Shown here piece by piece: positions 15,366 through 58,724 of a stretch of DNA of 64,000 nt. The stretch lies in the NCBI GenBank assembly GCA_013368315.1, contig JAACJM010000013.1:62001-126000 (forward strand), given 5' to 3'. Position numbers and translations under genes: made by a program. The notes below the pieces were generated by a model. That model was not told the origin of the DNA. It was given only the letters and a program-made list of their open reading frames with translations, and ran no database searches. The DNA is from Tetrapyrgos nigripes. Lineage: Eukaryota > Basidiomycota > Agaricomycetes > Agaricales > Campanellaceae. Numbering within the stretch: position 1 is the stretch's first letter; every line of letters begins with the position of its first letter.

Positions 15366-16926
15366 ATGTGCTGAATGTGGGCTGGCTGGCGCGGGAGTGA
15401 TGACGGTGAGGTGGGTTGAGGGTTGTGGGGTTGTGGAGTCTTGAGCGTTGTGCTCGTCTTCCCTTCTTCCTTTCCTAAGCCTCGGGTTGGATGCTAGCAT
15501 AGTATGGGACCGACTATGGGTGTCGTGTCACTTCACTGACCCTATGCAAAAGTTACTGGGTTTGTATACTGTATATTTTTATTTCTCCTTTGATCAGACT
15601 TTTGGCTCGTTATTCCGATCTCCTTTGTCTTTATCGTTCTACTTGTTGATTTGGTAGTACCTTGTTTCCTGTTTTGTTTGGCGTCTATTTGACTTTTTTT
15701 CTCTCGTTTTGAATGCACTATGTAGCTACAGACCACAGTCTGGCTTTTACATAATTGTCATCACAAAAAAAGCGAGTATCTTCTGAGCAAAGACAAGCCG
15801 CATAAGCTGTCGTAGGTGATAACTATTATTCCAGACCTTAAACTGCTATCCAAAATCCTGTATTTAAGTACGAGGTCAAAAATAAAGTTCGGCATCAAAA
15901 TTATATTTGAAAGAACAATCTCGATATTGTATGCTTGAATTGCAGTATCCATGGATCTACCTACACTTATCGAAACAAAAAAGGATATGGAACCCATAGG
16001 AGGAAATAAGCTAAAGACAAAAGATGTTACATGTGAGATTCATAAGTGTGACTTGTCTTAGACTGACATCGGAAATCTTCCACTTGGGAAGAACGTCGGA
16101 AAAGAAGTTGGGATTTGAGTGGTTTGAGATAATCTTTGACACTACATGGCATGTCTTTCTGACATGTCTTAAAGAAGCTATCTATCTACTTACAGCTGGA
16201 CGACAAAAGATCATTTCCAGAAGTACAAGCCAAGACTGAAAGATATCACTTACGAGAAAGACAAGGCTCACACACCTTAGATACAGTGAACTTCTACTAA
16301 CCGTTGAAGTGCTCACTATTATGGCAAGAGTCGGATGTCACAGAAAAATACTGGGATATGTAGGACGACTTATAGTTCCTAAACTTAGGTACACAGTAAT
16401 TCTAGTAGCAGTGGTAAGCCCTGAACACCTCTCATTCTTGACAAGAGGCAAGTGTAATTTTGCCCTTAACCGCCTGGTTCATCTAAGCTGAACTGTGAGA
16501 AAAGGTATCCTTTCAGTAGCTGCAAGCTTCGTATTTCAAATGGTAAACTGCAAGGCGGACAAGTCATCTCCATGTCATAAGCAAGAAGATGCTGTTTGAG
16601 CCTGTCTGAGTCAACAGTCTGCTGGAGAATCTCGGCCATAAATTTATTATCGTACATAGCAGTGAAAAAAGTCTCAATCACATTGGAGGTGATGACTACA
16701 TTTACAAAACAGGTAATGATAATGATGATGGAATACTAGGTAGGATAGCAATAATAGGATAGTGGCGATGATAACATAGACGGATATGTAATCAAGGAGA
16801 CAAAAAGGTATAGGCAATCACAGCAGATTTGGGTATTAGGCAATGAGATGATACGAAGGGTATAGAAGTGGAAGCAAAAGGGATGGATAGAGATGGAGAC
16901 AGGCGAAAACGAAGACCAAGAAGCAA
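15366..16926. other. Intergenic, about 1.5 kb, mostly unexplained
   Basis: No convincing gene. A minus-strand frame at 16466-16681 (71 residues, with PPCSLPFEIRSLQLLKG) is the least random-looking stretch and could be an exon remnant. It has no family I recognise and no visible partner exons. Confidence 0.35.
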
Positions 16927-18884
16927 CTACACAGCCACTGTCCCTGTTGCCGCAGCGGTAGGATTGACGACACTGGATGAAGCACTAGGAGCGACAGGAG
17001 GAGACAGTTCACTGGTAGTACCAGGGACAACGGCAACAGTGGATGTTAGAGTGGAGACAGTGGATGTTGAGTTAGTGATAGCAGTGGATGTTGTGATAGC
17101 AGTGGACGTCGAGGTAGCAATAGCAGTAGGTAAGCTTTTAGCAGCCTCTTCAGCGTCCTCAGCAGCAGCCATTTCCTTGGCAAGGCGCTGAAAATGTTCG
17201 TTTTCATCTTCAGACTCGGCGTCAGAGTCTGTTGCATCATCGTCATCATCATCGGGAATCTTGCCAAAGACCTGTCTGCACAAAGTCACCAACTTGCAAT
17301 GAAGAGGGGGAACAAATGATTTACTTATCCCACCATGTTAGCGTGTCTACAGCCCACTTTTTGCTACCAGTCTGAAATCTTGAGACGACATCCTTGTGGA
17401 AGGTGTCATAGCGAAATTTTCGATCCATGATTTCCCAGCTTTCTACATCAGAGAGTGCAAACCTTACCTATAAAGAAAGAGACATTAGCAGAAAGCCATG
17501 ATAGAAGAACAGTACTCACTTGGCAGCAAACCATGGCAATGAAACCAGGCTCGATCCGTTTGATGCCATTGCTGCGGGCATTAGAGTTGCGAGGTGCCTT
17601 CGAGTAGTCACTGATACCGTTAATGGCACGGGACTCGCCAAATAAAAAAGCACGGGCAGTCTGTATATGACTCAGAGTATTAGTATGAGCTGAGCATAGA
17701 ACAATTGGAGGAAGCTCACCCTGACCAAAATAGGAGAGCGAAAGAGACCTTGATACTTGTTTTTTGGTTGATACAGTTCTGGGTCGTAGCAAAACCATGG
17801 AAGGCTGGAGTTGTCGACTTTTGAGGCACCATCCTTCATCTTAGTCCTCACCCTGTGGATAACGTTAGTACAGAGAACAAAAACAAGACAGAGTTGGGAT
17901 CTACTTCTCTGGGTTTCTGATGAAGGCCTCTCTTAATTTCAGAGGGCAAAGGAGCATGCTGGTATGAGGGTGAGTGAATCCACGAGCAGACTTTGAGACT
18001 TCATCCGGGGACAGGGGAGGGTTGAGAAGATCAGAGAGAGGTTTTGAAAGCATATAAGATAGTATTTTCGACTTCAAAAGGTTGGTATCAGAGCATCGAG
18101 CTTGGCTTGCTTGTTGTTCCAACTACAAGCTTACGTCAGAAACGAGAAAACGAAAGGCAAAGGCAGAAGGTAACAATGAGGGCGAAAACGAAAAGCAAAG
18201 GCAGAAGGTAACAATGAGGGCGAAAACGAAAAGCAAAGGCAGAAGGTAACAATGATGGCGAAAATGAAAAGCAAAGGTAACAATGATGGCGATGACGACG
18301 TACCCATGTAATGAAGTGTTCAAGGTCAGCAGTCGATTCTCTACCCATTAGCTCCAAGAGGTGTTTTTGAAGACCAGGTACGCGGTTCAAAAACTTGTGA
18401 TATACCTGCTTGTGCCACTCTTTATCGGCGTCTGATCTTTAACTTGTGTTAGTATACAATGGAAGGCCTGGACATGACAGGACTTACAAGTCTTCCAAGA
18501 TTGGGTCGTCAGGGTTTCCATCTAGGGCCCAGCTGACATGGCAGACGTTACCAATGCCAGTGTAAGGAGACCTCATTCTGTAAAACCATTGAGCGGCATA
18601 GCGAAAGGGTTTCAGGGATTCCTGCCTTAAAGAAAGTAAGGCGTTACTAGATAATAAGTTAGAAGAAGAGTTGTGACTCACATTTGGTTGCGTTTGCGTT
18701 TTTTGGCGTTGCCGATGCGCTCTAATGCTTCTTGAGGTACTGATTGAACGTTGTTCTCCTGTTCCTGAGAGTCAGCATGTGAACGCTTGTGAGTTTGAAG
18801 CTCATTGAGAGCAGGTGTGGTTTGGGAATTGCTGGGGCGGAGAGGAATAGACGCAGGAGGAACAGACACGGGAGGAAGGCTCAT
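16927..18884 (-). CDS. DUF6698 family protein
   Basis: This family is strongly expanded in Agaricomycetes, often near transposons, and its function is unknown. About seven exons. The N-terminus starts MSLPPVSVPPASIPL, with a basic patch, AKKRKRN, that could be a nuclear signal. Conserved blocks in order are AAQWFYRMRSPYTGIGNVC, VYHKFLNRVPGLQKHLLEL, STADLEHFITW, CSDTNLLKSKILSYM, STRGFTHPHTS-like KSARGFTHPHTSMLLCPL, then NKYQGLFRSPILVR, ARAFLFGESRAI and RIEPGFIAMVCCQVRFALS. The final exon is acidic, then Ser/Thr/Ala-rich low complexity, ending TGTVAV. The fourth intron (18123-18303) holds a minisatellite. The frame looks intact, so it may be functional. Confidence 0.8.
18132..18292. repeat. 38-bp minisatellite inside a DUF6698 intron
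   Basis: The phrase GGTAACAATGA recurs at 18169, 18207, 18245 and 18276. The first two spacings are 38 bp; the last is 31 bp because GGCAGAA is missing. The array fills most of the 181 bp intron 18123-18303, whose splice sites (TGG|GTACGT and GTAG|TTGG) keep the protein frame. Confidence 0.88.
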
Positions 18885-19262
18885 GGTGGTTCAGTGTAAA
18901 GGACCAATAAGTCATGAGACCTTTAAATTTACGGGCAAATCGGGCAATCGGGCAAAAATCGGGCAAATTGAGTTAAACGAATCAGGCGAAGATCAACATT
19001 GAGCGCCGAAGATCAGCAGTTCTTTGGTATATACAGTAGCGGTCAATATTAGGTATATAAGAGAGCATAGAGAGTAAAGAGTGGAAGATCAGTGGTCAAT
19101 AGGTATATGAGAGTATCAGTCATTAGCTACGGAGGTATATAAATGCAAGTCATCAGCTATGGATGTATATAAATGCAAGTCGTCAGCGATCAATAGGTAT
19201 AAGAGTGCAACGTAGTGCTAAGTCATTGGTAGTCCATGGAAAGAAGAGTCTACTACGCTCTA
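18885..19262. other. Intergenic with short AGGTATAT-type repeats
   Basis: Between the DUF6698 start and the 3' end of the next gene. The DNA carries imperfect repeats of TATATAAATGCAAGTC and GGTATATRAGAG between about 19030 and 19205, without coding potential. Confidence 0.45.
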
Positions 19263-20570
19263 CTAGAGTGATACCTTGGCCTTCTTGACCTGCCTAGCAT
19301 CTCCTTCGTCATCATCATGGTATCGTTTGCGTGAGAACTTGTTTGAAGTTCCAGCAGAGCACGCTGAAGGAAATTGAGCGTTGGACTGAAAAAGATCGGT
19401 GAGCCAAGGGAAAGAAATGTCAAAAAATCTATGTAAGAGGCTTACTTTCTTCTTTTGGCCAGAAGTTCTCTTGGGTGCTGCAGGCTTCGGCAATAGATCA
19501 AAAGTCAAGGAGCTATGAGGGCGCCCCAATTCCATCGTGTGCTGGTAACCTGGGATGTTAATCTGATGATGGTTGGCAGGGACAGGCTCTGGGTCGGAGT
19601 CACCACCATCCAGAGTAGGGGCAACAAAGGCATATGTGCGGGATAGGCCTGGTGTAGTGTAGAGCCCGTCAGGCAAGTGATGGAATATGCAAGGATGGCC
19701 ACCGTCCACTTCGATGGTAGTTGGTGGGGCTGTAGCATTGAAAAAGGAAGGGTTCGTTGGGGGTAAGGAGGGGGGTGCAGTAGACGATATGCTGAGAATT
19801 CCATCATTCCAAGAAGAAACAATGAAGGGAGGTGCAGAGGCACTGGCAGAGGCACTGGCAGTCGGTGCAGAACCAGCAGCAACGGTGACGCTAGCAGGAG
19901 CGGTGGCAGGAGGAGTGGTGACGGTGGCAGGAGGAGCAGTGATGCTGGCAGGAGTGGTGACGGTGGCAGGAGGAGCAGTGACGGCAGCAGGAGGAGCTCG
20001 AAGAGGAAGGACCGTAATGATCTGTGGTTGGGCCGGTGTATGGATGTGATTCGGTGGGGTCCAGACAATCACTGGCATCGGTATAGCTGGACTGGGAAGA
20101 AATTGTGGAGGAAGGGAGGCAGTCATGTTGGGGAGGCTGTTCAACCTCTCCATCATGACTCTAGTTGCCTCTTGGAGAACTCGAGTCGATTCTCGACTAT
20201 ACAAGTATATGTCCTCGCACAGCTGGTCATACTGTACTTGAGTCCGGGCGGGATTAGTGAGAATCCTGTCACTAACGTAGCCTGTACGCTCTTCGAGGTT
20301 GGGGAACCGAAGTGGGCCAGTCTGTGGTGGGTAAGAGGGTGGATAGGGGATAGGACGGCCTGAAGACGTGTAGACCCGTGAACTGTACCACACCGCTCTG
20401 TCCTCCGCCTTGTAGAGACGTTCATCTTCCAGTGCGATCTCATAGTTGTAATCTGGATCCTCGATATTGTCGCTATAATGTCGGTGAGAGAGGTAAGAGT
20501 CGACGAAGTTTTGAAATGACCACTGCACGGAGGCGTCCTGTCGAAAGGAGGGAGGGAAGTCTGACGCCAT
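19263..20570 (-). CDS. Hypothetical Pro/Thr/Ala-rich protein
   Basis: Not recognised. Two exons (19446-20570 and 19263-19385) are joined across a 60 bp GT-AG intron; together they are 1248 nt, giving 415 residues. The N-terminal 150 residues are ordinary and aromatic-rich (WSFQNFVDSYLSHRHY; RAVWYSSRVYTSSGR). The centre is low complexity with repeated TAPPATVT and ASASASA stretches. The C-terminus is basic, with a possible nuclear signal (KRYHDDDEG...VKKAKVSL). It sits head-to-tail behind the DUF6698 gene on the same strand, a pairing that may be accessory cargo, though nothing shows a shared function. Reading through the intron also stays open, so a 435-residue form is possible. Confidence 0.6.
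   Translation of the reverse strand: MASDFPPSFRQDASVQWSFQNFVDSYLSHRHYSDNIEDPDYNYEIALEDERLYKAEDRAVWYSSRVYTSSGRPIPYPPSYPPQTGPLRFPNLEERTGYVSDRILTNPARTQVQYDQLCEDIYLYSRESTRVLQEATRVMMERLNSLPNMTASLPPQFLPSPAIPMPVIVWTPPNHIHTPAQPQIITVLPLRAPPAAVTAPPATVTTPASITAPPATVTTPPATAPASVTVAAGSAPTASASASASAPPFIVSSWNDGILSISSTAPPSLPPTNPSFFNATAPPTTIEVDGGHPCIFHHLPDGLYTTPGLSRTYAFVAPTLDGGDSDPEPVPANHHQINIPGYQHTMELGRPHSSLTFDLLPKPAAPKRTSGQKKKVSLLHRFFDISFPWLTDLFQSNAQFPSACSAGTSNKFSRKRYHDDDEGDARQVKKAKVSL
19850..20000. repeat. Short GGAGGAGCAGTGACGGTGGCAG-type coding repeats
   Basis: Degenerate 15-30 bp units encode the Ala/Pro/Thr stretch of the hypothetical gene. They read as PPATVTTPA-type repeats on the minus strand. Confidence 0.6.
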
Positions 20571-21614
20571 AGATAGAAATGAGTGAATGTGACTAGTGAG
20601 GAGTAGAACGAGTGGTGGCTTGGAATCAAAGTTGAGAGTGAAGTTGGGGTGTATATCACCGAGCTGGCTTTTATACAGGAAATCCTCGATCTGTTGTTTT
20701 GCACTATTTTAGAAGAAATGGAGGCTCTACAGACCTTCTGAGGCTTACGAGCAGCCACTCGAGGGTTGAATGACCAGGTTAGTGGACATTGCAACGACTG
20801 AACATTGATCGGCTCAAGCGGCTATCGGGCATTGACTTTGGAAGCTTCTTGTGAGAAAAGAAAAGGTCGAAAAACAAGTATGTATCGGCCATACTTGTAG
20901 GACCAAGTTTTATGGACGAAGGAGACACGAAAAGAGGACAACAAGGAGAGGTGGCTTCAGGATAAGGATGGCTTTTAGAGTCTTCACCGCCGTTCCAGAT
21001 CTGCAGTCTGTCTTTAGGTACGCGGTTTGAAATACCAAAAAAGCATGACATGACGCACTGAGTTACATGACGTTTAATGAAGGCGGGATTGCCATGGACA
21101 TTGGATCAACCTAAAAAGACCCTGACGACGACGCCCACAAAAACCAAAATTGTACGAGAATTTTGGAGCCATAATTAAAGCTGCTGCGGTGGTTGAGCAG
21201 TCGCTATCACGGTTTAAGTTTGTGTGTACGTACCAGATGCATGTGGTGCGCTCCTATATCAAAAAAGGTAGTACGGGGTCCTCGGAAAGACAGCGCCATT
21301 GACAGGGAATTACTAGAACACTATCCTGCAAAAATCCCTCGTCACCAATCCCAGTATAACCCCAGCACGTATAGCCATCAATGCGTTCTATGTTACTCTT
21401 GCATTTTTGGGAGAATCAATTACTGCCATCCAGAACTGTTCATCGGAACGATTTAACGTCTGAGAAATATACAAGAAAAAAAAGAAAGACAGCAAGACAT
21501 AGGTGGCATAAGCTATGACTTCGGTATCAATAAGAGAAGAAAAAGGTGAAGGTGCACAAAGGAATGGGTCTCTCCACGGGACAAATCCGACTAGGAGACT
21601 ACAAAAAGTGACGG
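20571..21614. other. Intergenic, no gene recognised
   Basis: About 1 kb holding the promoter of the upstream minus-strand gene and the 3' region of the next. I found no conserved coding pattern, hairpin array or RNA gene. Short frames on both strands look random. Confidence 0.4.
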
Positions 21615-23568
21615 CTAAGATAACCGGTCAACTTTTCGGGATAGAAGCTGATTATTAGAGAAGGCATCAAGTTTGGTAGTTTGTGAGGTAGCTATATGCA
21701 TTCGATTTGCTAGTAATGTAAGTGGAGTATTCTCGGCGAGTGCAGCGGGCACAAAAGCAGGTAAGGAAGGAGCAAGATGAGATGAGGAGATGGAGACAGA
21801 GTCATTGGGCCGAAGATTGGTCACAGCGGAAGAACCATCTTGCGTGAGTGCAGGATGCAGCAAGGAGATGGTAGTCGTCGTCGAAGCATGGGATGGAGGG
21901 TTGTTCGAAATAATAGGTCTTGGAAGTACAAATTTCTTGTTAACGGGTTTGACTGGCAATTCGGCAGCTGTGGTTGCACCAGTTTTCGACAGCTCCTTCT
22001 CCTTCAGCTCCTTCTCAGCTTTACTTCTCTGCACCTTCTCTGCCTGCTTCTTGAGCCCATCGATGATGCTTCCTTTCACAGGTGCCGGTTTCGTGGGTGG
22101 TTGCAAGTGGGTGGTGGTGTTGGTGTTGGGTTTCGTAGTATGCGCATGCGATGAAGAGGAAGAGGAAGCAGAAGTAGAAGCATTCTCAGCTTTACTAGCA
22201 GTAGCATTGGCATGAGAAGCAGCGTTTATCTTGGCGATACTGAAGGGGTTTGGTTTGTACTGGACAGATTCTTCGCGTGTAGAGAGGTCAAGGTCGTTCC
22301 AGAGCTTGGTGTCTGCAGAGGAGGGCTCAGTAGAGGAAGCAAGAGCAGATGAGGCTTCGTCATCAGAGGGTTCTGAGTCCGAGTCTGCATATGCATATCT
22401 GGACGATCTCAGGTTGAAAGACCAGACGTCACTAAAGTGGAGGAAGAGGAGTGGAAGGTGCTCCCATTGGACAGCTACCGAGATGTCCAGGCCCAGGACC
22501 AGAGGATCTCCATGAGCTGGCGTCTGAGTGGATGTCTGGGAAGATCTCCGAAAGAGGTGTTCTTCTCCTGCCCTCACAAGAGACACGTCTGGAATCCTTT
22601 TCACCCTTCTTCCTCTTATTCGTCCCCCGGTCTTCCTGTTCCTGACTGAGCCTCTTAGTCTCCCTCTATCTTCTCCTCTGCTCACGAACAGTCTCCAAGC
22701 CTTCTTGATCCCATCTGATACTTGCCCCAGAACTACCGGACGACGTTCTCGAGTTGAAAGACGTGGTTGACAACGGTCTCAAGGATGACGCGGTCGACAA
22801 GCATGAACCAGAACGTGCACGAGCGGCCATCATAACAGCTGACTCGACAGAAAGACGGTTGTTGTCAATGTTGCTGTCAATGTTGCCTTCGATGGAGCTG
22901 GGAGCACCGATAGAGGATGTCGTTGAGCCACTACGAACAGCTGGGAGTCTCATTGTCAACGGGAGACCGAGACCAAGAATACTACGTTTCTTCCTCATCA
23001 TAGTCCGTGCAGCCTCGGGACCAGCTGTTAGAGCACCAGCCTCAAAGCTGCTCGACGAAGTGCGAACAGTCTGGGCACGGCCCTTCTTCTCCTTTTCCTT
23101 CTTATCCTCCTTGTCCTTCCTTGTCTTCTTCTTCTCTCTGGTGGATTCATCCTCGTCCTTGAATTTCTTCTCGCCTTTGGCTTTAGTCTTCTTGTCGTTC
23201 TCCTTGCCTTTCCTCTCGTCTTTCTTCTCCATAGGAGCGTCATCACCAGGAGCGCCGTTCTTCAGCTGTGCCCAGCTGCTGATATGCGCTAGAGAACGCA
23301 TGGAACGCATGGAACCCAAGGCAATGGAACCTTGGTTGTTGCTGGGTTCGGTGCCAGCAGAAGATGGCGGTGCAAGCAAGCCACCCATGGTTGGCATAGC
23401 AGAACGAGAGGTGCTAATTGGTGCTGGACGACAGTCATCAGAGACTACTCGGTCAATGTTGACGTTGAGTAGCTGAGGATTTGAGATATTCCTGGCATCA
23501 TAGGCAGGAGCAGCAAACGTAGGTGAGTTCAGGACAATACCAGAATCCAACTTTGTGTACACTGGCAT
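21615..23568 (-). pseudogene. Low-complexity charged protein gene, reading frame interrupted
   Basis: The 5' part (23568 to about 22670) starts MPVYTKLDSGIVLNSP, has a long Lys/Glu/Asp stretch and ends at RWDQEGLETVREQRRR followed by TAG. The same frame continues past that TAG as RETKRLSQEQEDRG and GRRRTPLSEIFPDIHSD, which reads like coding sequence. A single-base nonsense change (GAG to TAG) is therefore likely. It stops again after TPLPPL, and a different frame then carries an acidic, Ser-rich 3' part (RYAYADSDSEPSDDE to LLSRKVDRLS). A short intron near 22430-22480 could join the last two parts, but the splice phases I tried do not keep frame. Function unknown; probably intracellular. Confidence 0.5.
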
Positions 23569-23665
23569 CGACGTTTTGCAGGCGGAAAACGCAGAGAAAT
23601 GACTTGCTAAGCGCCTTCTAAAATGCGTGATACCATTTTTCGAAATAATCGACTGGCGTCACATC

Positions 23666-23870
23666 GGATTTGTGTTGGATGGCGACGGAATCACCACTGT
23701 CAGTGTGAAGGACCATTTCGCGATCAGCGTCATGAAAACAGTCGGTGGGGACAGTGGCGTTGGAGTGGATTTGTGTTGGATGATGCCGACGGAATCACCA
23801 CTGTCAGTGCGGAAGACCATTTCGCGGTCAGTGTCACGGAAACAGTCGGTGGGGACAATGGCGTCGGAGT
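23666..23870. repeat. 101-bp tandem duplication
   Basis: GGATTTGTGTTGGATG begins at 23666 and again at 23767. The two copies share long blocks, including GACGGAATCACCACTGTCAG and ACAGTCGGTGGGGACA. The second copy has a 3 nt insertion (GAT). A third copy begins but fades at GTCGATTTGGCTTGG. Confidence 0.85.
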
Positions 23871-24117
23871 CGATTTGGCTTGGGATTCGGACAAGGCAAG
23901 GAGGAGGGCGAAAGCAGACATATCTTCAGGAGACTGACACCAGATATCGTAAAGTCTGAAAAGGTCAGGCAACGCAACCTTGTTGGTTAAATCATTAAGT
24001 AAAAATTGAAACAACCAGACTCACAAATCGACAATCCACCACCTAAACCGGCGTAAAACGGGCCCAACAGAACTTGCTTCCTCTCGGGGACTGCTCTTCA
24101 CCCTTCTGCCGACTTCT

Positions 24118-24495
24118 CTAGTTCGCCACAAGCTTGGCCATAGATTCCTTCTCTTTTGGAGTCAGATGAAGCAGAAGGAACACTTCTAGTGCGATGCATG
24201 CGGCGATGAGGAAGAGTGCCCTGTGATTGGAATGAAGGTGAGGATGCGGGGCGATCCGCTTCACGGCAAGGAGAATGAGTTCGTGAATGAGGTCAAGAAG
24301 GCGGGTCGGCGTAAGGTGCATGGGTATGGAAATCACAATGAGCATAGCCTTATCAAATGAGGTGGTATGCGAGACCGTGTCCTTGCACAATGCGCTGAAG
24401 CGAATAATGACGTAGAATAATAAAGAGAGTGTAATGGGAGCGGACGACGTGTAAAGACCGTCGAGCAACGAAAAATGGACTCTGGAACTACGCAA
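24118..24495 (-). CDS. Possible small hydrophobic protein
   Basis: A 125-residue frame with two or three hydrophobic stretches (ITLSLLFYVIIRF; LFLIAACIALEVFLLLHL) and a C-terminus TPKEKESMAKLVAN. No intron, family or conserved residue is recognised. It could be the last exon of a decayed membrane protein or chance. Confidence 0.25.
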   Translation of the reverse strand: MRSSRVHFSLLDGLYTSSAPITLSLLFYVIIRFSALCKDTVSHTTSFDKAMLIVISIPMHLTPTRLLDLIHELILLAVKRIAPHPHLHSNHRALFLIAACIALEVFLLLHLTPKEKESMAKLVAN

Positions 24496-24665
24496 GAAGG
24501 GGAGCTGGGGAAAGCCGCAGTTTCTTGTGCCGGCTGACTAAGAGGCAGCCGCAAATTGTCTCGATGTTCGCAGATTACCTTCACTGTTAGCTTCTTGACA
24601 CGAATCATATGGGCCTCCAATTATTAGCTGTGAAGTCTCAAAATATGGCCAATGGCAGAGCAGGA

Positions 24666-25136
24666 TCATCGCTTGATGAGATCCTTGTGACCATTCTTAG
24701 CGCTGCTAGCGCAGCATCCCCGACTCGAAGTAATGAAAGGAAAAGCATTTTTTATTGATTTGAGTACACCGGGAAAGTGTTGTAGTACATATGGTACACC
24801 CGCCCACCTCCCTGAATACGAGTACAGTTGTAAAAAGAAATGAAACGGTTCTTGTTTTCAACTACTACACTATACTTAAACCGTACTCGATCTTCCAACT
24901 ATCGCCTTTTTTTTAAAGAAACAGCAGCGCCAAGAGCCTGGGACTGCCACGCCGCTCGCAGCGGCTCTTCCGAGGCTGACTACAGCTAACATTGTCATAA
25001 GCCATCGTGACCAGGTTTCTTTCCTAAAAGGAACTGGATGAGGTGCGGATCAATCATTCGACGACCTAGTCCCTCCTCTTCCCTTCGGTCCGAGTCGGGG
25101 ATTTAATCATCACTTGAGGAGATCCTTGTGACCATT
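24666..25136. repeat. Segment flanked by 30-bp direct repeats and short inverted repeats
   Basis: TCATCGCTTGATGAGATCC...GACCATT at 24666-24695 recurs with three mismatches at 25107-25136. Just inside lie inverted 11-mers TCCCCGACTCG (24717-24727) and CGAGTCGGGGA (25091-25101). The arrangement resembles an inserted or excised mobile sequence of about 385 bp upstream of the transposase gene. Confidence 0.6.
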
Positions 25137-25487
25137 CAAGTTGTCATATAACTAGAACCTCGATGGGTACATAGCGCTGATTCTTTCCTGCCCTTGTCTC
25201 AATTCCCCAGTTTTTAGAATTTCATCCCTATCCATCCTGAACTACATCCTTCTTATCAGCTCTTGTATACTTTCTTAACAGTGGCGTTGTGGCTTTGCCA
25301 GTGGTGGTTCCTTGGTCATACATTGATTTCCTGTAAGCTTAGGGGTAACCACAGCTACGCCCACATCAAGCCTTCCTCCAGGTCCTTTGTTTGGCTTTTG
25401 ATTAAAATTGGTTTCTGACTGGAGTAGTATTAGTGCTGACATCCTCCACATTTCTTGAAACATTCCTAACAAAGCTTATCTTCAATA

Positions 25488-28400
25488 ATGGCTGTAAGCT
25501 TTTCAAGATATTTCCTGATATTTCTTCTCACTCTTTTCTTTTTCCTTTATTAGGGGGGAACCTGTTCACATTGTGGAAGGCAGAATCTCAAGAACCTGAA
25601 GAAACACCATAGTTCCTGCTCAGCATATGAAACTCATAGAAGCAAAACTATCAAGGGATCACTTCAATTTAATCAGCAAATGCAGGTAGTCACTATTCAG
25701 TTTTTTTTTTTTTGAGAAATAATGCTCATTGGGATCAGGCATCTGCATCTGGAACAACAGATTCTCCAATGGATGTTGACATTGAGGTAAATGTACTTCA
25801 GATTATACAGTTTAAATCTGATCTAATTTTAACAATTAGCAACAACATGATGTACCAGGAGCAGTAACAACAGAAGATTTTATGTTAGATTCCCAGGTAT
25901 TGCTAATTTATATATGAGTCATCAAAAGGAATTCTGACACTTTGTGTGATTTAGAATGATCAAACTGCTATGCAAATTGATGAGCAGCCTCATACCCCTC
26001 CAGGCCCTCAGATACCTATTCAGGTACAATATTTTTAATTGGTTGATATCACCTACTTATGCTTTTTATAGCCTGATTATTTTCAGACTCCGGACCCCAA
26101 TGAAAATTTGCCACCCAGAACAAGAGCTCCTCCAAAGGTGCTTGAAGATTTCGGCATGGTACAGTCTATACCCCTCATCAAAAAAGTCCGAACAAAGCCC
26201 ACTGCAGCCAGAACACCAAGTCCTAATCTCTTTGGATCCTCTCCCCTCTCCTCTCCTCCAGATTCTCCTCCTGCAGAACCAAAGCCCCTTCCTGCCCTCT
26301 TTCAGACTGATCCAGATCAGTTTGGACTGTTCCGAGTCTATGATAAATCACCTAGTCATGATCCATTGGAAAACATCAATCTACAGGATCTTACAGACTT
26401 TCATATTCCAGGTGGCTCCAGTGATACAGATAACAGAAATCCTTTTTCTGGATTTGGCCCTAATGTCAATATCTCTTCTATTTCCAATCCAGACATCCTT
26501 TCCAAAGGGCCTTTCCGAAATACTAGTGTTTTTCGTCTCATGAAATGGCATCATGATGCTATGAAAAGAAAAGCACTGGGAAACTTGGACTCTTTGGTCA
26601 CAAATGTCATTCTAGCCAAGGATTTTCAGCAGAAGGATTTCCATGGGTTTAATGGACAAAGGGAAGCTCATCGTATGGATCAGTATATGAAGGCTCAGGA
26701 ACAGGCAGCAAAGGAGACTTTGTTACCGTGGAATGCTGCAGATGGTTGGACCAAAAGCTCTGTTTCACTTAAGCTTCCCAGAGCTAGATGGTCTTGGGAG
26801 AGAGAGGAAGATATTCCTACAATGAAAGTGGACAATGTTTGGCATAGAGATGTACAGGAGGTCATCAAGGCAGCATGGCAGAGTGACCAGGCTTGGAACT
26901 ATCACCATAAACCATTCAAGCTGATGTGGAAGCCCTCTGAAGATCAGCCTGCTGTTCGTATTTTTGGAGAAACCTTTTGGAGTGATCGGATGATTGAAAT
27001 GGATAGGAAGCTGCCAGAGATCCCTGGATGTGGACTGGAGAGAATAGTAGTCCCTGTGCAACTCTGGTCAGACTCAACTCATTTGACAACTTTTGGAACT
27101 CAGAAGATGTGGCCAATTTATATGTTTATTGGTAATCTCTCAAAGTATACTCGTGGACGCCCAAGCACTTTTTCAGCTCATCATATTGCATATGTGCCTG
27201 AGGTATGCAATTTCTTTCAATATATGCAATTCCTAATAATTATCTCTTGTGTCAGCTTCCAGACAAGATTGAGGATTTCTACCATAGTCTATTCAATGGC
27301 CAACATCCTTCCAACAACGAAAAAACTCATTTACGAAGGGAGCTTCTTCATGCTGTTCTTGCTTTGATTTTCAATCCGACATTTCGCCAAGCATATTTAG
27401 AAGGAATTGTGGTTTTATGTGTGGATCAGATAATGAGAAGGCTTTTTCCCAGGCTGTTTTCCTATTCTGTTGATTATGTTGAAAAGTAAGCAGAGATTTA
27501 TCTTCTTCTTGGTTGATCAACTATCTAATTATCCTTCATCTAAATATAGAGTGATGTTGGCAGCAATGATGTTTCTATCGGAATATCCTTGCACTGCTTG
27601 TATGATTCTGAAGAGGCAGATAAAGTATGTTGGAACAAAGGTTGACCTAGAGAGGATAGTGAAGAAGCCAAGAGTAGATGATGATGTTAGGCAGGGGAGA
27701 GTTATAACTGCCAGAAAGTTGATTTTCCATGATGGATGTGCTGTCAGAAGTGATAGAGTCTTGGCTCTTTTGAAAAATGGCTCATATATTCCCACACTGG
27801 TAAGGAACTTTGTAATTGTTCCAGTATTTATAACTTACTGTTTGCAGAGTCAACTATCTGTTTTTTTACAGGATGTTGGTGAAAATATGTTTGACCTTTT
27901 CCCAACTGACATTCTGCATGACTTTGAGCTGGGGAAATGGAGAGATGTTTTTACACACCTCTGCCGGATCTTGCAATCTATTGGACATGAAAAACTGAGT
28001 GAACTGAACCAGAGGTGAATATATGTGAATTTATACTTGATTATAAAGTTTTCTAATACCCTATTAGATACCGCAATATGCCTAGCTTTGGCCAGGGCAC
28101 TATTCGCTACTTCAAAAGTAATGTCTCTGATATGAGACACTTTGCTGCCAGAAACTTTGAAGATTTACTACAGGTTAGCCATTTTGAGTCTTTTAGGCTA
28201 AGCTCTAACTTCATTGTTTTGTCTTAGCTTGCTCTTCCAGCTTTTGAGAATCTCATAAGTGATAAACAGCAAGAGACAATTGTTCAGAATCTGCTGTTTG
28301 ACCTTATGACTTTCCATGCTCATGCAAAGCTCCGAATTCAGACAGAAGATACCTTGAAATCATTCAGACTGGCTACTCAGTCTCTGGGTCAATCTCTGCG

Positions 28401-30006
28401 ACAGTTCGCTAACAGAACTTGTGCATTTTATGCCGACACCAAGGAGCTCCCTCGCGAAAAAGCTGCAAGACTTCACAAAGCTGCTAATCAGACTAAGAAA
28501 GCTACAAACACAGCTGTGGCAAACACAGCTGTGGCAAGCACAAGTTCTGAAACAGCTACAATTAGAAGAAAGAAGTTCAATATGGAAACGTATAAGACTC
28601 ATGCCTTGAGTCATTATCCAGACCATGCGGAGCAGTTTGGCACATATGACTCTATTTCTACAAGAGATGTGAGTTGCTGATTGTGTGATACTACTACAAC
28701 ACTAATCAAAGTATGTTTTAGGGAGAAAGAGAACACTGTTACATCAAGTATATGTATGATCTTGTCAGCAAGAAAGACCATACAGCTGGAATTGCAGTGC
28801 AGGAACGCCGTCATGATCTGTTGCGCAAGGTGGATGAGGATACTCTGAAACCAAAGCAGTCTTCCTATTCTAAAGCCCAGAAAATGCTTTTTACTCTGCC
28901 AACACAAGAAGAGGATTCACAAATTCCTGATATTTCAAAACCATACCACATTGCTGCATCTCAGGTCAACTATCAAACTATCTATTCCTTGATAGAGGCA
29001 GGCAAAAAGGATCCTGCACTAAAGGTGAGTTCTAAATATACAAAAGACTATCAAGTTTGTCTCAAATATATCACAGAATTTCCAAGAAAAGCTAGAGTTA
29101 CACTTGTTGCAGCAGCTTCTTCCTGAGGAAAAAGAGCTGGATCGAAATACTATTGGCATTGTATCTGGCCGACTCTTCATTCACAATACTGTTTCCTTTC
29201 ATTTCACCACCTATGACTGCAGACGTGATCGGGATGTTGTGAATCCAAAGAGACACAATGATATCATGATGGTTTCTAATGACCCTGCTGCATCTCATCC
29301 ATACATCTATGCCAGGGTCATTGGTATATATCATGTTAATGTTAGACACTTTGGAGAAAGGTCTCGAAGCACAACAAAGGAGCATATGGATGTTTTGCAT
29401 GTCAGATGGTTTCAACATGTCACTTCATATCCTTGTGGCTTCAAGGCCAAGCGTCTTCCTAGGCTGCAGTTTATTCCTGAAGATGACCCAGATGCCTTCG
29501 GGTTTGTTGATCCTAAAGCAGTTCTCCGAGGGTGTTATACAATTCCAGCATTTGCACATGGCACTACCAAGGAATATCTTGATTTTCCTAATTCCATTGG
29601 AAGACCTCCAAGATTCACTTCTGAAGGTCTAATCATAGATCAATATGATTACAAATATTATTACGTTGGAATGTGAGTCTCAGGTGGATTGAGAACCTTT
29701 GTGCTTTGCTAATTAAATTTTAACTTTAGAGCGGTTGATAGAGACATGTGGATGAGATATCGTGGAGGAGGTGTTGGACACATTACGACCAGGGAATACA
29801 CCAAAGAGATGGAAGTTGAAGCACTGGGAATTGAGGTAGCTGAGGTAGTTGAAGAAGTGGAGATGGAGACTGATCATGATCATCCTATCTATCAAAGTGG
29901 GAATGATGATGGGAAAGACGATATTGGCGATGAAAGTACTGGAGAAGATGATAGGTATGATGAAGAGTATAATGAGCCCTCTGATTGGGAAACAGACGAG
30001 AATTAG
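25488..30006 (+). mobile_element. Plavaka-type (CACTA-like) transposase gene
   Basis: Transposase of the Plavaka family, DNA transposons common in Agaricomycetes. The first exons are 25488-25493 (ATGGCT), 25554-25685, 25739-25786, 25840-25896, 25955-26023 and 26087-27202, then 27256-27485 and 27550-27799; all junctions keep frame. The N-terminus has a C-x2-C...H...C finger (GGTCSHCGRQNLKNLKKHHS). The diagnostic core is RIFGETFWSDRMIEMDRK, VVPVQLWSDSTHLTTFGTQ, WPIYMFIGNLSKYTR and FPTDILHDFELGKWRDVF. Further C-terminal blocks include PYIYARVIGIYHVNVRH and VDRDMWMRYRGGGVGH, with an acidic tail. I see no in-frame stop or frameshift, so the gene may be recently active. No CACTA terminal repeats were found by eye. 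Confidence 0.88.
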
Positions 30007-30802
30007 TAACTAAAACTACCCTTTGCAGAGAACTGAAGATAGCATTTACTTACTACTGCAGTTTCAGTCATATGTTCTATACATTTAATGTTTATATCCA
30101 CAAACCTTCGACATGAGTTGAATACCTGTAAGAGGCGGGTCATGGGTTTTAGGTGGGTTTGGATATGCTGACCCATACCCGTACCCGCCAACCCGTGCTA
30201 TTCCCTACTACTTGGCCCTTGGCCCTGCCCCACTGGATCTGCCTAGTAAATTGCATGGGTATCCCACAGGTACTTTTAGTGTGACCTGTGCACAAAAATA
30301 TCTGTGGGTCGTTAACCATTACACCATTTCAATATTATAATGACTGAAAGTGAACTGCACCGGTATTCCGTGGGTACTTTTGAGGCTACCCGTACCCATG
30401 AGCCCTATGTACCCGCAGGTCTTGAGTTGATGAGGGAAAAATCAACAATTTGCATTTGAAAAAAGGTGAGAATTAATCGTTAGCCTGAGGCTATTTAATA
30501 CATTGAACTAATACGTACAAAGCCTCATTGAAGTGTTTATGGCCCATCTGAGCCACCGTCAACCGGCACGGGTCTGGAAATCCGTACCCGTTAGACCCTT
30601 ACCCGTGACCTGTGATAACCTGCCAGACCCGTGCTTTTCACTAATGACTGATTGCATACCATATCGAAGTCTCCAGAGCCACAGGTCTAGATATTACTAC
30701 CCATACCCATACACAGCCTGTGCTTTTCACTGAAGGTGCACCTTCAGATGTCTATTCACTATTCAAATTCAAGGCCAGATCATCCACAATACATTATGAA
30801 GA
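30007..30802. repeat. Intergenic array of ACCCGTACCC-like motifs between convergent element genes
   Basis: Clusters of CCCGTACCC, CCCATACCC and their complements occur near 30171-30195, 30386-30418, 30566-30634 and 30694-30720. A motif CCCGTGCTWTTCMC recurs at about 30191 and 30628, with a weaker copy at 30718. The layout resembles subterminal repeats of a hAT-like or CACTA-like element. No protein is encoded. Confidence 0.6.
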
Positions 30803-32569
30803 TTAAAATTTAAGCCTAGATTGTACCCCTTTGACATGAGAATAGATCATTCCTCTCCTCTTGAAAGCCTCCACTGCTTTTACACACTGCTGAGTGATTT
30901 GAATTGAGGTGCCAAATCGCGTGACATTTTCTGGACTTTGTGACTGCATTGTAGAATGCTCATCTTCCTGTCCTCGCCAAATGATTTCGACGAGACCTTG
31001 TGCCCTGCTCATTGATATATTTCATAAACTGAATACTTCATAAGAAATTACTGCTTACCTTTCAAAATCCACTGCACACTTGTACTTGCTAAGAAGAAAG
31101 GCTCCACCTTTCACAGAGCCATGATCATGCTGATCAGGATTGAACTGCCATCTTTGCCTGGGTGTTGGTCTGAAAGCTATCCACCACATTCCATATGCAA
31201 TATGGGATGCATCACGGTCTCGATGAATGAAGTTGGCAAAGTCATCATCAGTCACTGTGATTGAATTGGCAAGAGCACCAGGCATGATTGGAGTCTCTTC
31301 AGTGATCTCTGTTTGTGAGATATCAGGAATGTTGGTTCTACAGAACACTTAAATCAGAGGAAAATGCACTACATAGAAAGCAAAGATACCTGGCAGCAAG
31401 ATCCATCATGGCTTTGTGCTCCATAGGAAACATGTTCTTCAAACCATCTGAATAAACTTTTGAAACAATATCGAGCTGAGAAGTACAATTTTGATAACTA
31501 ACACAATGATTAAACTGAGTGAAAAAAAGAACCGGCATATTGACTCACTCAGTTTGCTGCTGGAGACTCTGTCGTTTCCATGAATAGACACCAATGTCTG
31601 TAGCTGTCTGACCACGTGGGGCATGCCACCCTGCAGCGACCATATGGCCATGCTTCTTGAAACTATCAGGAGAAGCATTGGCTTCATGTGTTTTTTGTGA
31701 CTGAAGAGCATTTGAATGGGAGGCACAATGACAAGAACCAAATATTACTTACAGAGTTAATTTCGATGGAATTTGCAAGCTTTGAGTAAATCATGAGAAT
31801 GTCAATTGAAGTTGTGACTTCATTATAGCGTTCCGGCTCCAGAGTGGCCAATTCGGACCATGGACTACAATATGACAATTAAATTCAGAGTAATTCCACT
31901 ATTGGAAAAAATCAGACATACGTTATTTTGATCTGAAAGACGATCTCTTCTGTTTCAAGGTTGTACCCGATATGTAAGCCCTTCTCAAAGAAAAATTCTG
32001 TTTTGTCCCTTGGAAAATTGGGATCTTTAGCATCAAGAGGCTGTTGTTTCTGACGCTCGAGGTTCTTCAGTTCTTCTATATACTCTCGATCGTTCCCGTC
32101 AACAAAATGAATGTGGACATCTTGCACCCCACTCAATGCCTGAGCAATCTGTAAGGGTCAATATTGATAGTTAGTGTCCTTCAAGTTGGAAAGATAATAC
32201 AAGAAACACGCACAGCTTGGATGCTTGACTTGATCTTTTCCTTCTCTCTCTCCTCCTCTTGAGCCAACTTCTCTTTTTGGACACGCTCGCGCTCTTCATC
32301 AGCTTCAACTTTGCGTTGCCTCCGCACATTTCTTTTTTGAGTTTTATTCAAAACCGGCCTCTACATGTGGGCATTAGTAAACTCCAATAAGCTGAGAAAG
32401 TACCACTCACAGTTTGACCACTTTCCAATTGATCAGTATCTTTGGACTTGGAATTGCTGCAATCAGCAAAAAGTTTCAAAAGCTCAAGCAATAAAATAAC
32501 TACTCTGGATTTCTTTCGTACCCTTGTTTTTGACATTTGTTGGGCAGGTCTCTGAGGGAGGGAATCCAT
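30803..32569 (-). CDS. TET/JBP-like 2-oxoglutarate/Fe(II) dioxygenase
   Basis: Family members oxidise methylated bases in DNA (5-methylcytosine; some fungal members also N6-methyladenine). About eight exons; E1 32411-32569, E2 32214-32360, E3 31922-32148 and E4 31753-31864 join in frame. The N-terminus has a basic, glutamate-rich coiled coil (RRQRKVEADEERERVQKEK). The catalytic domain shows the Fe(II) H-x-D motif in ANFIHRDRDASHIAYGMWW, then GGAFLLSKYKCAVDFER, and the distal His/Arg region around DEHSTMQSQ and VTRFGTSIQITQQC. It ends RLKF at 30803. Convergent with the Plavaka transposase, 796 bp away; links between TET/JBP genes and DNA transposons are known in basidiomycetes. The frame looks intact. 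The family is assigned from motifs recalled, not from a search. Confidence 0.75.
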
Positions 32570-32710
32570 GATTGATATAGATGAAGTCGTCGATGGTCGA
32601 AGATAAGAGCCTTGCGCCTACTGACGTCACTCGCATTTTTGACTAATCATGGACCCGAAAATTCCGCCCTTTTTGTCTCTTACGCCCACGAACGACTCTA
32701 ACTCTCGTCT

Positions 32711-34686
32711 ATGGCGTCTCCGGGGCGTACCATTACTGCTGCTAGTCCACTTAGGCCTGGTGTCTCTTCTATGAACCCTCATGTACCCATGCTTACTCTG
32801 GAAGAAGCTACTTCGGATGGACACGAACGGGATACTGACAGTGCTGTTTCGACGCCGGCAAGAAGACGTCCTCGTCCGGTGTCTGAGCAGATGTTGGGCC
32901 ATAGCAGACCTCAACCTGTTTAGGACGAGGATGGTGAAGGTATGTGTTTCGTTACTTATAAAGTTTGTCACTATACTAAAACAAATCGCAGGTGTCATTT
33001 CTATTCTATCCGCTGCGACTAACGATCTCGCCCAACTCATCAACCACTTGGATTTGGAGGTGACACCTGGCACCACTCCCGGTACACTAAATATCTCTCC
33101 GTGGAGGCAGTAGATGTTCGCTGGTGCCGTTCCCCGTGTTCCCGATAATGATGAAAGCCCGACCAAGAAGACTTTGTGCAAGGACATCAGTTCCATCACT
33201 TCACTGCGACCTTACACCCAGTCTCAAAGTCCTACCAAACAGCCTTCATCCAAAGATCTTCTTGGTCAGCAGATTGCACCTTGGCCCACACTCAACTCGA
33301 TGTTCCCGAGAGACTCACCAAAGCCTTCACCACCAGTTGCATCATCGTCGGCACCAAGGACGCGTCCCAACCACAAGAGGACGTTATCACCTCCAGCTCC
33401 CATGCTTGAGAACTCTCCTCCCATGATTCGTCCATTGCGTCCTGCCAAGTCAAGGTCAGGTATTGTCGCGATGAAATCTTTGGGTCCACCACCATCTGAG
33501 GGCCTTCCGTCTATTGAACCCAAGCTCGATGCCGGTACTATCCGTGCTCCCTCGACGTTGACGTTTGGTTCTTGTACGTCCTCTCGAGGAGGTGATTCAT
33601 CTATCAGTTCCATCGATGACATCAAGAACCGACCACCAGTCCCAGTTTTGCCTTCTGCATTTGGACATGCTAGGAACAGATCTTCGCTGCTTTCATCTCA
33701 ATACAACAGCAACGACGACGACAACACTACTAGCCGTCCTCTCGTACCTGGAGCCAGGAGGATGCTCGGGATGAAGGGAACAATGGGAGGTTCTGACGTC
33801 TCAGCCTATGCTGTTGACGAATTGGACGCATCAGATCCTGAGTCAGACATTCCTGATGAGCTGCAGAACATTTGGGCAAAGCGTCACAAAGACGACACCC
33901 TCTTATCGTCCTTCCAGTCCTCGTTCTGCGTCTCCCGAAGATGTTCCTCAGGACGTCTCTGAGATGGACTCTCTCAGTGATCCTCAGCCCTTGGACATAC
34001 CCATGTTCCATCTCACTGACGTCAACGAGAATCAAATTGACATGGACGATATTGATATGGACGATTTTCACTCTGACGAAGACGGCGACACCAAGAAATC
34101 CTTCGACTTCACCGGCGAACTGAAGTTGAACGAGTCCGGCGCCTCAGACCGACAAAGCTTCATGGAACAGTTGGAGAATGCATTCCGTACCCCTGCGAAA
34201 CTCGACCTTTGTTATGACTTTGGAGATTCTGATAGTGGTATGCTGAGTGTTGAAGTGCCCCCACTTCCACCTTTGCCTTTGCTACCTGCTCAAGCGGAAA
34301 CGTCGTCCAGCACTATCCAGACAGATGTCTCTACAACCTCACATGAGGCAGTCGCTCAGCTCAATTCGCTTCTGGTCAACGCTTACACGCAAGTAAGTAA
34401 CACGATTTTTAACGCCGAGTTACTACCTACCTTTCCTAACCAGCTTCTTAGGGCGCCATCGTCACCGTCGCCGTCTGCTTCTCAACCGCGCCATCGTCAC
34501 CGTCGCCATCTGCTTCTCAACCGCGCCATCGTCACCGTCGCTGCCCGCTTCCGAGTCAATGATGCACAGCGTCAAGTCTTCATCACGTCTAAGACTTGCT
34601 CAATTACCTTTAGCTCTTTCTCTGTTATGACATCAATAGTTAATGGGATGGAGAGTTCTCTAATTTCTGTCTGGAAAGAAGTATAG
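32711..34686 (+). pseudogene. Decayed Ser/Pro-rich protein gene
   Basis: Starts MASPGRTITAASPLRP, then RRRPRPVSEQMLGHSR. After an intron (about 32940-32991) it reads GVISILSAATNDLAQLINHL and TPGTTPGTLNISPWRQ, where an in-frame TAG (33111-33113) interrupts. The same frame continues as FAGAVPRVPDNDESPTKK, QQIAPWPTLNSM and LGMKGTMGGSDVSAYAVDE to SDIPDELQ. Near 33885-33900 the reading shifts to another frame, SPRSASPEDVPQDVSEMD and MDDIDMDDFHSDEDGD. A further intron follows near 34392-34443, then a 35 bp repeat. The continuity on both sides of each break indicates one ancestral gene with a nonsense change and a frameshift. The family is not recognised by name. Confidence 0.6.
34453..34555. repeat. 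35-bp tandem repeat, three copies
   Basis: GCGCCATCGTCACCGTCGCC starts at 34453, with close copies at 34488 and 34523. The 35 bp period is not a multiple of three, so each copy is read in a different frame. Confidence 0.85.
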
Positions 34687-34689
34687 AAC

Positions 34690-35579
34690 TTCTGTGAGTT
34701 ATCAGTGAGCAGACAATGAAGACAATTGTATGGTGTGATACTCTGCCAGCATGTTTGTGTGGGCTTGTACAGTTCATTATAGATCTACAAGTGATAGGCA
34801 GTCTGGACTTTCTGAGGAATATGAGTGATAATATCCTCCTGGCTTCTATATCCCCTCATAAGCTTCTCAGATGTACTCTGAGGCCTGAAAGGAAAACATT
34901 TCAATGCCATAGTAAATGATGGGATATTCTCACGGAACTTGCAGGCACGACTGAGCTTTCGGCCCTTGTACATGCTTGTGAGATGCGTGGCAGAAAGATG
35001 GATCTTCCCATTTACCCGGAATGATTCCACCTCTCTTGTATAGTTTTGTCGTTTCATCGTAAACCTTTTGCAAACCTTACACATCCCTAGAAGCCGCCGA
35101 AAATTATTTTGGCTGCTGCTATGTAGCAAAACCATTTCGCACAACTCACCAGCTATTGAAAGGCAACGAAAATAATTCCAGTGAAAGTACAATAAACAAT
35201 AAGTTGTCATTATGATTCTGAGACTTTACACAGGGTTATACACAGTTGCAATTTTTTTGCATTTTTTGTGATGGTAGTCGAGACTCGGAGTCGTGCTGTT
35301 GTTACGTGAGCGCTATTTCTATAGCTAGTCTCAGAGATTTGCCATGGCCACAGAATGACTATAATAGCCTCGCAATGTTGCAGTATAAGTTCCAGGGTGT
35401 TGTTATAAGCATTCTAAGATTCTAAGATACAAAGCATGCGTGTACTACTAGAGCACTCAGAACAACACAGTCCATAACAAGTACAAAAGCGTCACAGACG
35501 CAGATAGGGAAGGTAATGAATGAATGAATGTACATCTGAACATCAGATGAAGAATAACGAGCATTTGGCAGTGTATGAT
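34690..35579. other. Intergenic, possible coding remnant on minus strand
   Basis: A minus-strand open stretch at 34785-35210 (141 residues; e.g. KLMRGYRSQEDIITHIPQ) has non-random-looking composition but no family I recognise and no neighbouring exons. The rest is 3' flank of the secreted protein gene at 35580. Confidence 0.3.
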
Positions 35580-45776: not shown

Positions 45777-46189
45777 TTTATAGTCTTGATTTTATGGGGG
45801 GAAGGGGACGAAGAGTGTTCTACTGGTAGAGCTTTCTTTATGAGTTTAACGATGGTCACGACGATGATATGATGTGATATATGCATGAGGATGGGATGTA
45901 CATAGCAGCAGTGCTGCCTGGTCTGGTTATCCTCATCGTCTCATCGTCCGTCTCAGCATTCGTCTTCCATGGTCCCTTCCTTCGACCGGCTTGTCTTTGT
46001 CTTTCCTTTCCTTTCCTATTTCCTTTCTTCCTTGCTCTCTTGGTGTCCTTTTCCTCAATGTCGGCGTCAATGTCATGCCATATTTGTATTTTTAGGATTC
46101 TTCACAATGGGTTGTAGCAACTAGCATTGGATTGTATATACACAGTAAACAGTATAGAATGTGTAGCTGCCGTATACTACTAGTGCAGT
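45777..46189. other. Intergenic between GH71 fragment and DUF6535 copy A
   Basis: A convergent spacer with a CT-rich tract near 45990-46040. Its sequence is repeated with changes at about 58300-58690, and part of it again at 55200-55265, marking it as part of the duplicated unit. Confidence 0.6.
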
Positions 46190-49100: not shown

Positions 49101-49514
49101 CAAAGAGCAACATTCCTGCCATGTCCTCCTTCCATCCTTCAACCAAAGCTTTATCATAACGTTGCGCTTCTCTGATATAGATGCTCCACATTTTTTCACA
49201 TGCTTGATCATCTGCAGTGGGCTGGAACCGTTCTGGGCAGTCAAAATACATGAATATGTCTGAACAGTGTTGATATACGGAAGACGACGTACTTTGGGAC
49301 GGCTTCTTGTCGTTGTCCAGATCAGGGTGGAAAAAAAAGGGACGTGTAGTCCAAAGTATGGAGAGAATGAGACCATTTCCATGTTGTTCATAGCATCCCC
49401 AGGTGCCTTCGAGGATCGCAGTGATTTAAAAGCTTTAATAGAGTGAGAATCCAGAGAGACAAAACACTGCAGCACATACGCACCGTTCGTCAGCCAGTTG
49501 AAGTGCATCGCCAA
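46190..49514 (-). pseudogene. DUF6535 membrane protein (copy A), frame disrupted
   Basis: An Agaricomycete family of unknown function with an N-terminal domain of about four membrane helices. Visible parts: QACEKMWSIYIREAQRYDK and GWKEDMAGMLLF, a 51-54 bp intron near 49050-49103, then LTAFLIESYKTLQPDP. Helices follow (NVLWFLSLALALTCSLLATF; MHSFVDVIPILLHISLFLFF; FPVNRIITYIMIGILVVFL). A long soluble C-terminal part runs to 46190. Two lesions: a T8 run near 49330 shifts the 5' part relative to copy B, and a 14 nt tandem duplication near 47620-47645 splits the protein between EVLMKWGMSV and VEHSTELCPA. Each remaining half is a long open frame (489 and 483 residues), so decay is recent. Treating it as two genes would be wrong. 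Confidence 0.75.
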
Positions 49515-58272: not shown

Positions 58273-58724
58273 TTTCGGGGTGCGGTTGTTAATTTCAGGG
58301 ATGGGGTGTGGGGGAAGAGTGCTCTACTGGTAGAGCTTTCTTTATGAGTTTAATGATGGTCACGGCGATATGATGCAATATGGATGGGGAAGGAAGGCAT
58401 GGCATGGGATGTACATAGCAGCAGTACTGCCTGGGTCTGGTCTGGTCTGGTTATCGTCTCATCGTCCGTCTTTCCATTCCTTTCCTTCTTCCTTGTCATT
58501 CTTTTTTCTCTTGCTCTCTTGGTCCCTTTGTTCGGTGTCGACGTCGATGTCATGTACTTGTTATTTGTATTTTCAGGATTCTTTACCATTGATGGTTTGT
58601 AGCAACTAGCATTGGATTGTATGTACACAGTAACCAGTATAGAATGTGTAGCTGCCGTAGTGTAGTTTAATTGTAAGAGCTCGGATGTCCCCTCACCCAT
58701 ATACCAACATCTTCGTGCAGTGAG
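58273..58724. other. Spacer of the second GH71-DUF6535 unit
   Basis: Related to 45780-46190, including GAGTGYTCTACTGGTAGAGC near 58315, the CT-rich tract near 58470-58510 and the AACATTGGATTGTATRTACACAGT-like segment near 58610. It probably contains both convergent 3' ends. Confidence 0.6.

Follow-up and report, generated by a model that had tools for sequence, protein, structure and literature searches.

A young Plavaka transposon carrying a Tet-like dioxygenase gene in Tetrapyrgos nigripes

Introduction

Plavaka transposons that carry a TET gene have been described as PlavakaB in Agaricus bisporus and Gymnopus confluens, where, according to Kojima 2025 (PMC12730594), they have CATCA..TGATG ends and a 2-3 bp target duplication, encode a PE-type dioxygenase with an HxE motif, and are proposed to escape from methylation. 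Here, we analyze a 64,000-nucleotide stretch of Tetrapyrgos nigripes contig JAACJM010000013.1 (hereafter, the window), in which a Plavaka transposase gene and a gene for a Tet-like 2-oxoglutarate-Fe(II) (2OG-Fe(II)) dioxygenase converge within one transposon. This element resembles PlavakaB in its transposase domain, CATCA..TGATG ends, 2-bp duplication, and internal TET/JBP-type dioxygenase, whereas its enzyme is of the HxD type (H321-R-D323) and falls in PF20515. According to the same paper, a TET/JBP gene is also carried by the Kyakuja and Zisupton DNA transposons of Agaricomycetes, which have AG-type TET (the CcTET group); these encode KDZ transposases rather than the Plavaka transposase found here. 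Among the literature retrieved on Plavaka, on the association of dioxygenases with transposons, and on anti-silencing, this source was the sole direct match for a TET-carrying Plavaka.

TET-carrying Plavaka elements as such are already known, and the HxD/PF20515 enzyme is what distinguishes the present one. Two further systems offer looser parallels. CMD1 of Chlamydomonas belongs to the host and makes another product, and a profile search of the PDB gave no sequence relation between it and the window enzyme. The VANC proteins of Arabidopsis VANDAL transposons are reportedly sequence-specific anti-silencing proteins; any likeness would lie in working alone, that of a transposon protein countering epigenetic silencing, as the window encodes a predicted catalytic dioxygenase that we do not count as a relative.

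Results

The genome searched comprised 98.5 Mb in 587 contigs, labeled here C plus a number, with the window on C13. Matches to the dioxygenase were found on three contigs (C13, C71, and C352), and comparison of these three whole copies delimited a complete Plavaka-type transposon of 19,515 bp, inside which the gene pair at 25488-32569 lies (Table 1). Collinearity of the window with both other copies ran from 15758/15759 to 35273/35274, with no match outside; this interval was 96.7-99.8% identical by piece, had unrelated flanks and, including inserts, spanned 30,422 bp in C71 and 22,111 bp in C352. The 15-bp terminal inverted repeats read CATCACAAAAAA[A/T]GC and match at 14 of 15 bases between the two ends. 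Flanking dinucleotides were GT/GT in the window, TT/TT in C352, and GC/GC in C71, hence a 2-bp target duplication in all three whole copies, where the sequence-only reading had expected 3 bp. The joined C71 site sits in a repeat family, 26 of the 42 matches listed spanning it, and all five related empty sites fetched were uninterrupted with a single dinucleotide (GC in four, GT in one). In the genome search, no empty allele was found for the window site or the C352 junction, the joined sequences hitting just their own flanks. The shared interval, its ends, the 2-bp duplications, and the empty sites together identify the 19,515-bp transposon as the unit, and support the conclusion that both genes belong to one mobile unit bounded by shared terminal repeats. 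The extent first suggested for this unit, 25-33 kb of the window, does hold the core genes, but the mobile unit is larger (15759-35273); that both genes travel together was borne out by the recurrence of the full interval, with both, in C71 and C352. A fourth copy is apparently split at contig ends, its left part on C515 and its right part on C32, with TT on both sides, and the two parts probably stem from one insertion. On C67, a left-type end and a right-type end enclose a 35-kb candidate, which was discarded as its flanking dinucleotides were not equal. We interpret the element as a young, recently mobile, self-contained Plavaka DNA transposon.

Table 1. Coordinates, strand, and basis of assignment of features of the element (positions within the window)
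Feature	Position	Strand	Basis
Target duplication, left copy (GT)	15757..15758	.	Flanking dinucleotides compared across copies
Left terminal inverted repeat, CATCACAAAAAAAGC	15759..15773	+	Collinearity edge with C71, C352; 14/15 match to right end
Complete Plavaka-type transposon, 19,515 bp	15759..35273	+	Same interval in C71, C352, other flanks; split fourth copy C515/C32
DUF6698 gene, 7 exons as modeled, 370 codons; may extend into another exon	17321..18884	-	PF20414, 171.3 bits
Open frame, 435 codons	19263..20570	-	No Pfam match at E <= 0.1
C73-like pieces, ~90%	21652..22497	-	DNA search of genome
Captured piece of longer coding region, ~92% to C273, C234, C222	22498..23550	-	DNA search of genome
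Stretch apparently inverted relative to captured gene; contains both core genes	22498..32756	.	Inference from C273, C73 pieces
Plavaka transposase gene (ATG 25488, stop 30006), 14 exons, 1257 aa	25488..30006	+	Splice model, Pfam, homologue alignment
Tet-like 2OG-Fe(II) dioxygenase gene (ATG 32569, stop 30803), 9 exons, 443 aa	30803..32569	-	Splice model, Pfam, homologue alignment
Two short C73-like pieces just upstream of dioxygenase start	32622..32760	.	DNA search of genome
Captured piece, next to counterpart of 22498-23550 in C273, C234, C222, ~92%	32757..34351	+	DNA search of genome
Right terminal inverted repeat; inward sequence CATCACAAAAAATGC	35259..35273	-	Collinearity edge with C71, C352; 14/15 match
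Target duplication, right copy (GT)	35274..35275	.	Flanking dinucleotides compared across copies

Splice sites of both core genes were predicted by hand from genomic DNA; in these models the transposase gene has GT-AG introns, and both frames splice without an internal stop, as initially described. The transposase contains FGETFWSDRM, VPVQLWSDSTHLTTFG, and DILHDFELGKW, the three motifs from which a Plavaka core had been recognized, and matches the Plavaka family PF18759 at 97.8 bits (cut-off 26.3). Across a 15-sequence alignment (14 homologues picked from 76 matches), homologues were 30-41% identical over the whole length, with C567 and C570 nearly invariant and D433, D649, H652, and E655 invariant or nearly so. 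Between the two genes, at 30120-30720, many GGGTACGGGTA-like repeats occur on both strands, possibly as protein-binding or subterminal repeats.

The dioxygenase, encoded on the opposite strand, carries the motifs FIHRDRD and TRFGTSIQIT and matches PF20515, the "Tet-like" 2OG-Fe(II) oxygenase family, at 127.7 bits, over the cut-off. The HxD of its HxD...H iron ligands (H321-R-D323) was present in 8/8 aligned sequences, the distal His in 7/7 covering that region, and the TRFGTS Arg was conserved as well; these residues support the earlier TET/JBP-type assignment. For the fold, the structure model of a homologue from Dendrothele (35% identity) was used in place of one of the window protein itself; its best matches were CMD1, TET2, NgTET1, and CcTet, with CcTet ranking below the other three, which supports a predicted TET-type double-stranded beta-helix fold and agrees with the earlier assignment. 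The window protein had no match to Tet_JBP (PF12851) at E <= 1 in Pfam, a match that the types of Kojima 2025 do not require, and a profile search of PDB sequences returned no credible relative and no solved TET, the best hit being a short unrelated chain (E 0.039). No Pucciniomycete sequences were among those returned in searches bearing on the PU-type TET/JBP grouping. Relatives occur in Stygiomarasmius, Dendrothele, and Lentinula; where a fungal species gave matches to both the dioxygenase and Plavaka, the two contigs differed in length, which speaks neither for nor against their lying together. A weak HIT-domain match in the charged N-terminal part (18.1 bits, below the cut-off of 21.5) was set aside. 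The protein is a putative active dioxygenase, with methylated DNA as its presumed substrate.

When PF20515 was searched exon by exon through the genome, with the best candidates alone being scored, 3/3 hits lay inside copies of this element. Tet_JBP (PF12851) hits were found on C284, over the cut-off, and on C404, under it, so the genome may hold further TET-type genes. The C404 match (26041-26394; 24.3 bits against a cut-off of 34.9) lies ~3.3 kb from a KDZ transposase at C404:29698-30504, on the opposite strand, an arrangement that resembles TET-carrying Kyakuja elements. The next relatives of the transposase, on C266, C118, and C143, were 44-68% identical by piece and had no PF20515 hit. 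They form a sister family whose right end, ...ATTTTTGTGATG, lies ~0.5 kb past the transposase match in the pieces examined (the C266 contig stops there). The sequence-only reading had named such a TET-less arrangement as refuting; because it occurs in a sister family, we take it to represent an element that lacks the captured gene.

Among the three whole copies, both frames are open just in the window (by the hand-made splice models). In C352, one base has been inserted into a transposase exon, 18 bases are deleted across an intron-exon edge of the same gene, and the dioxygenase gene is split by a 1.6-kb insert; in C71, the transposase carries a nonsense change and the dioxygenase frame stays open. 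The C352 insert (C352:13952-15583) has a 99.9% identical copy at C352:2352-3983 and inverted ends of ~212 bp, and resembles a short foldback element or one of the miniature inverted-repeat transposable element type. C71 also holds ~10.8 kb (C71 ~94517-105351) inserted at the place of window 33705, with CpG-rich tandem arrays and inverted outer parts, and a ~35-bp tandem repeat at window 34453-34551 varies in copy number among the element copies.

Changes among C13, C71, and C352 were polarized two against one, large inserts excluded, over 623 CpGs; by this procedure, a CpG lost in two copies is misread as a gain in the third. CpG-to-TpG changes accounted for 81/111 changes in C71, 26/36 in C352, and 8/16 in C13. 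For C71, change at CpGs ran at 38 times the rate of other C-to-T changes, losses occurred in all nine regions (6-20% of the CpGs of each), no TCG or CpA preference was seen, and non-CpG C-to-T changes followed the order CC > CA > CT. Observed/expected CpG was 0.26 in the transposase gene and 0.44 in the dioxygenase gene, 0.52-0.91 over the rest of the element, with 0.67-0.87 for the captured pieces, and 0.81-0.83 in the window outside it. Such decay fits past or present CpG methylation of the element, a mark that would here be read from its mutational trace, and two PF00145 hits in the genome make a host methyltransferase plausible. The CpG-transition/transversion ratio was 9-14 between element copies and 0.24-0.36 in the TET-less Plavaka pairs L043/L044, L042/L043, L047/L048, and L057/L060, which are 5-10% diverged, older, and mostly CpG-poor already, so that the comparison is not decisive on protection. 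Four pairs that were ~50% different (misaligned) were dropped (L056/L057, L056/L060, L062/L063, and L002/L007), and the near-identical family L002-L005 had no substitutions available for the count.

Besides the two core genes, the element holds a DUF6698 gene, an open frame, and pieces captured from elsewhere (Table 1). The counterparts of 22498-23550 and 32757-34351 adjoin on C273 in one orientation; C234 and C222 match equally well and C4 in part; the DNA search listing for such pieces is incomplete, C352 being unlisted though it carries the stretch. From the orientation of the two pieces, we infer that 22498-32756 was inverted after capture. The other breakpoint joins pieces matching C73, in line with the prediction from such an inversion, the remaining C73 pieces being in a different order. 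Given the collinearity of the three copies, the inversion is common to all of them. The long coding look of the C273 region suggests an ordinary host gene. Elsewhere, in the right half of the window, 45993-49381 and 58468-62020 form a direct repeat of ~3.4 kb, 84-93% identical.

Discussion

We consider it probable that the element is a mobile Plavaka whose dioxygenase oxidizes 5-methylcytosine (5mC) to ease silencing. In this account, the transposase would move the element as a unit between its CATCAC...GTGATG ends, duplicating 2 bp of target, and the element would have acquired the Tet-like dioxygenase gene, the DUF6698 gene, and other gene pieces, one of them split by inversion. The host would methylate CpGs along the element, the dioxygenase would most likely oxidize its 5mC, and the eased silencing would last long enough for transcription and movement. 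Presumably the enzyme would be targeted to the element and would benefit it, and de-repression by demethylation may be the means. Several observations weigh against this account. The genome abounds in Plavaka families that lack TET, one of which (L002-L005, four copies on C6, C26, C106, and C258) is 99.95-100% identical over 4 kb, PF20515 not being found on these four contigs in the genome profile search. Between the C71 and C13 dioxygenases, nine codons are changed, 7/9 non-synonymously. Loss of CpGs continues in the element copies, and CpG depletion is strong in the transposase gene. Finally, a young repeat pair on C352 outside the element (99.5%) shows no bias, with CpG changes at 1/8, so the CpG bias is not common to all young repeats. 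The sequence-only reading had offered protection or de-repression of the element by removal of methyl marks; with CpG decay going on, no protection of element DNA is visible.

That the two genes are chance neighbors rather than a single mobile unit has next to no probability. The sister family, with its right end ~0.5 kb past the transposase match and no dioxygenase, might favor it, but the interval with both genes, ends, and target duplications was found in three whole copies, and the right end of this family lies at 35273 and not within 30006-30803. As the sequence-only reading held, the two genes form one mobile unit, with PF20515 found nowhere else in the exon-by-exon search of the genome. 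It is less easily dismissed, though still unlikely, that the dioxygenase gene was captured in the way the other pieces were and rides along as passenger DNA of no help to the element: the element carries further captured pieces, sister Plavakas lack the gene, most codon changes in C71 alter the protein, and the C352 gene is interrupted. Unlike those pieces, however, it is a full-length, open nine-exon gene with conserved catalytic residues, its CpG value (0.44) is closer to the 0.26 of the transposase than to theirs (0.67-0.87), and several lineages of transposons are described as carrying TET genes (PMC12730594).

We regard as rather unlikely an enzyme that acts on element DNA with another product or substrate (a CMD1-like 5mC adduct, or oxidation of 6-methyladenine or thymine) and not by 5mC demethylation. 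Quite improbable is an origin of the C-to-T bias in hypermutation resembling repeat-induced point mutation in place of steady 5mC deamination, in which case the bias would say little about the methyl mark in growing cells. A C-to-T bias of this kind at CpG is reported for transposable elements of some basidiomycetes (PMC4352252), yet the C71 changes extend across all nine regions without TCG or CpA preference. A possibility to which we give tentative weight concerns the enzyme itself, which may represent a further transposon-borne TET/JBP type (PF20515, HxD), unlike the PE type hitherto reported from Plavaka, taken up independently by a gene-capturing Plavaka and possibly yielding a CMD1-like product.

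If it is such a further type, the element would carry a device against silencing that acts solely at the level of transcription, with CpG decay going on unchecked. Judging by the continuing decay, the enzyme, if active, seems not to preserve the cytosines of the element, which narrows the possible roles of such enzymes. The element is also an example of a Plavaka acquiring and rearranging parts of other genes. Young and precisely bounded, it offers a test case for the escape-from-methylation idea, with a domain found in one element of the genome only, open and interrupted copies of the gene, a TET-less sister family, and a record of CpG decay.
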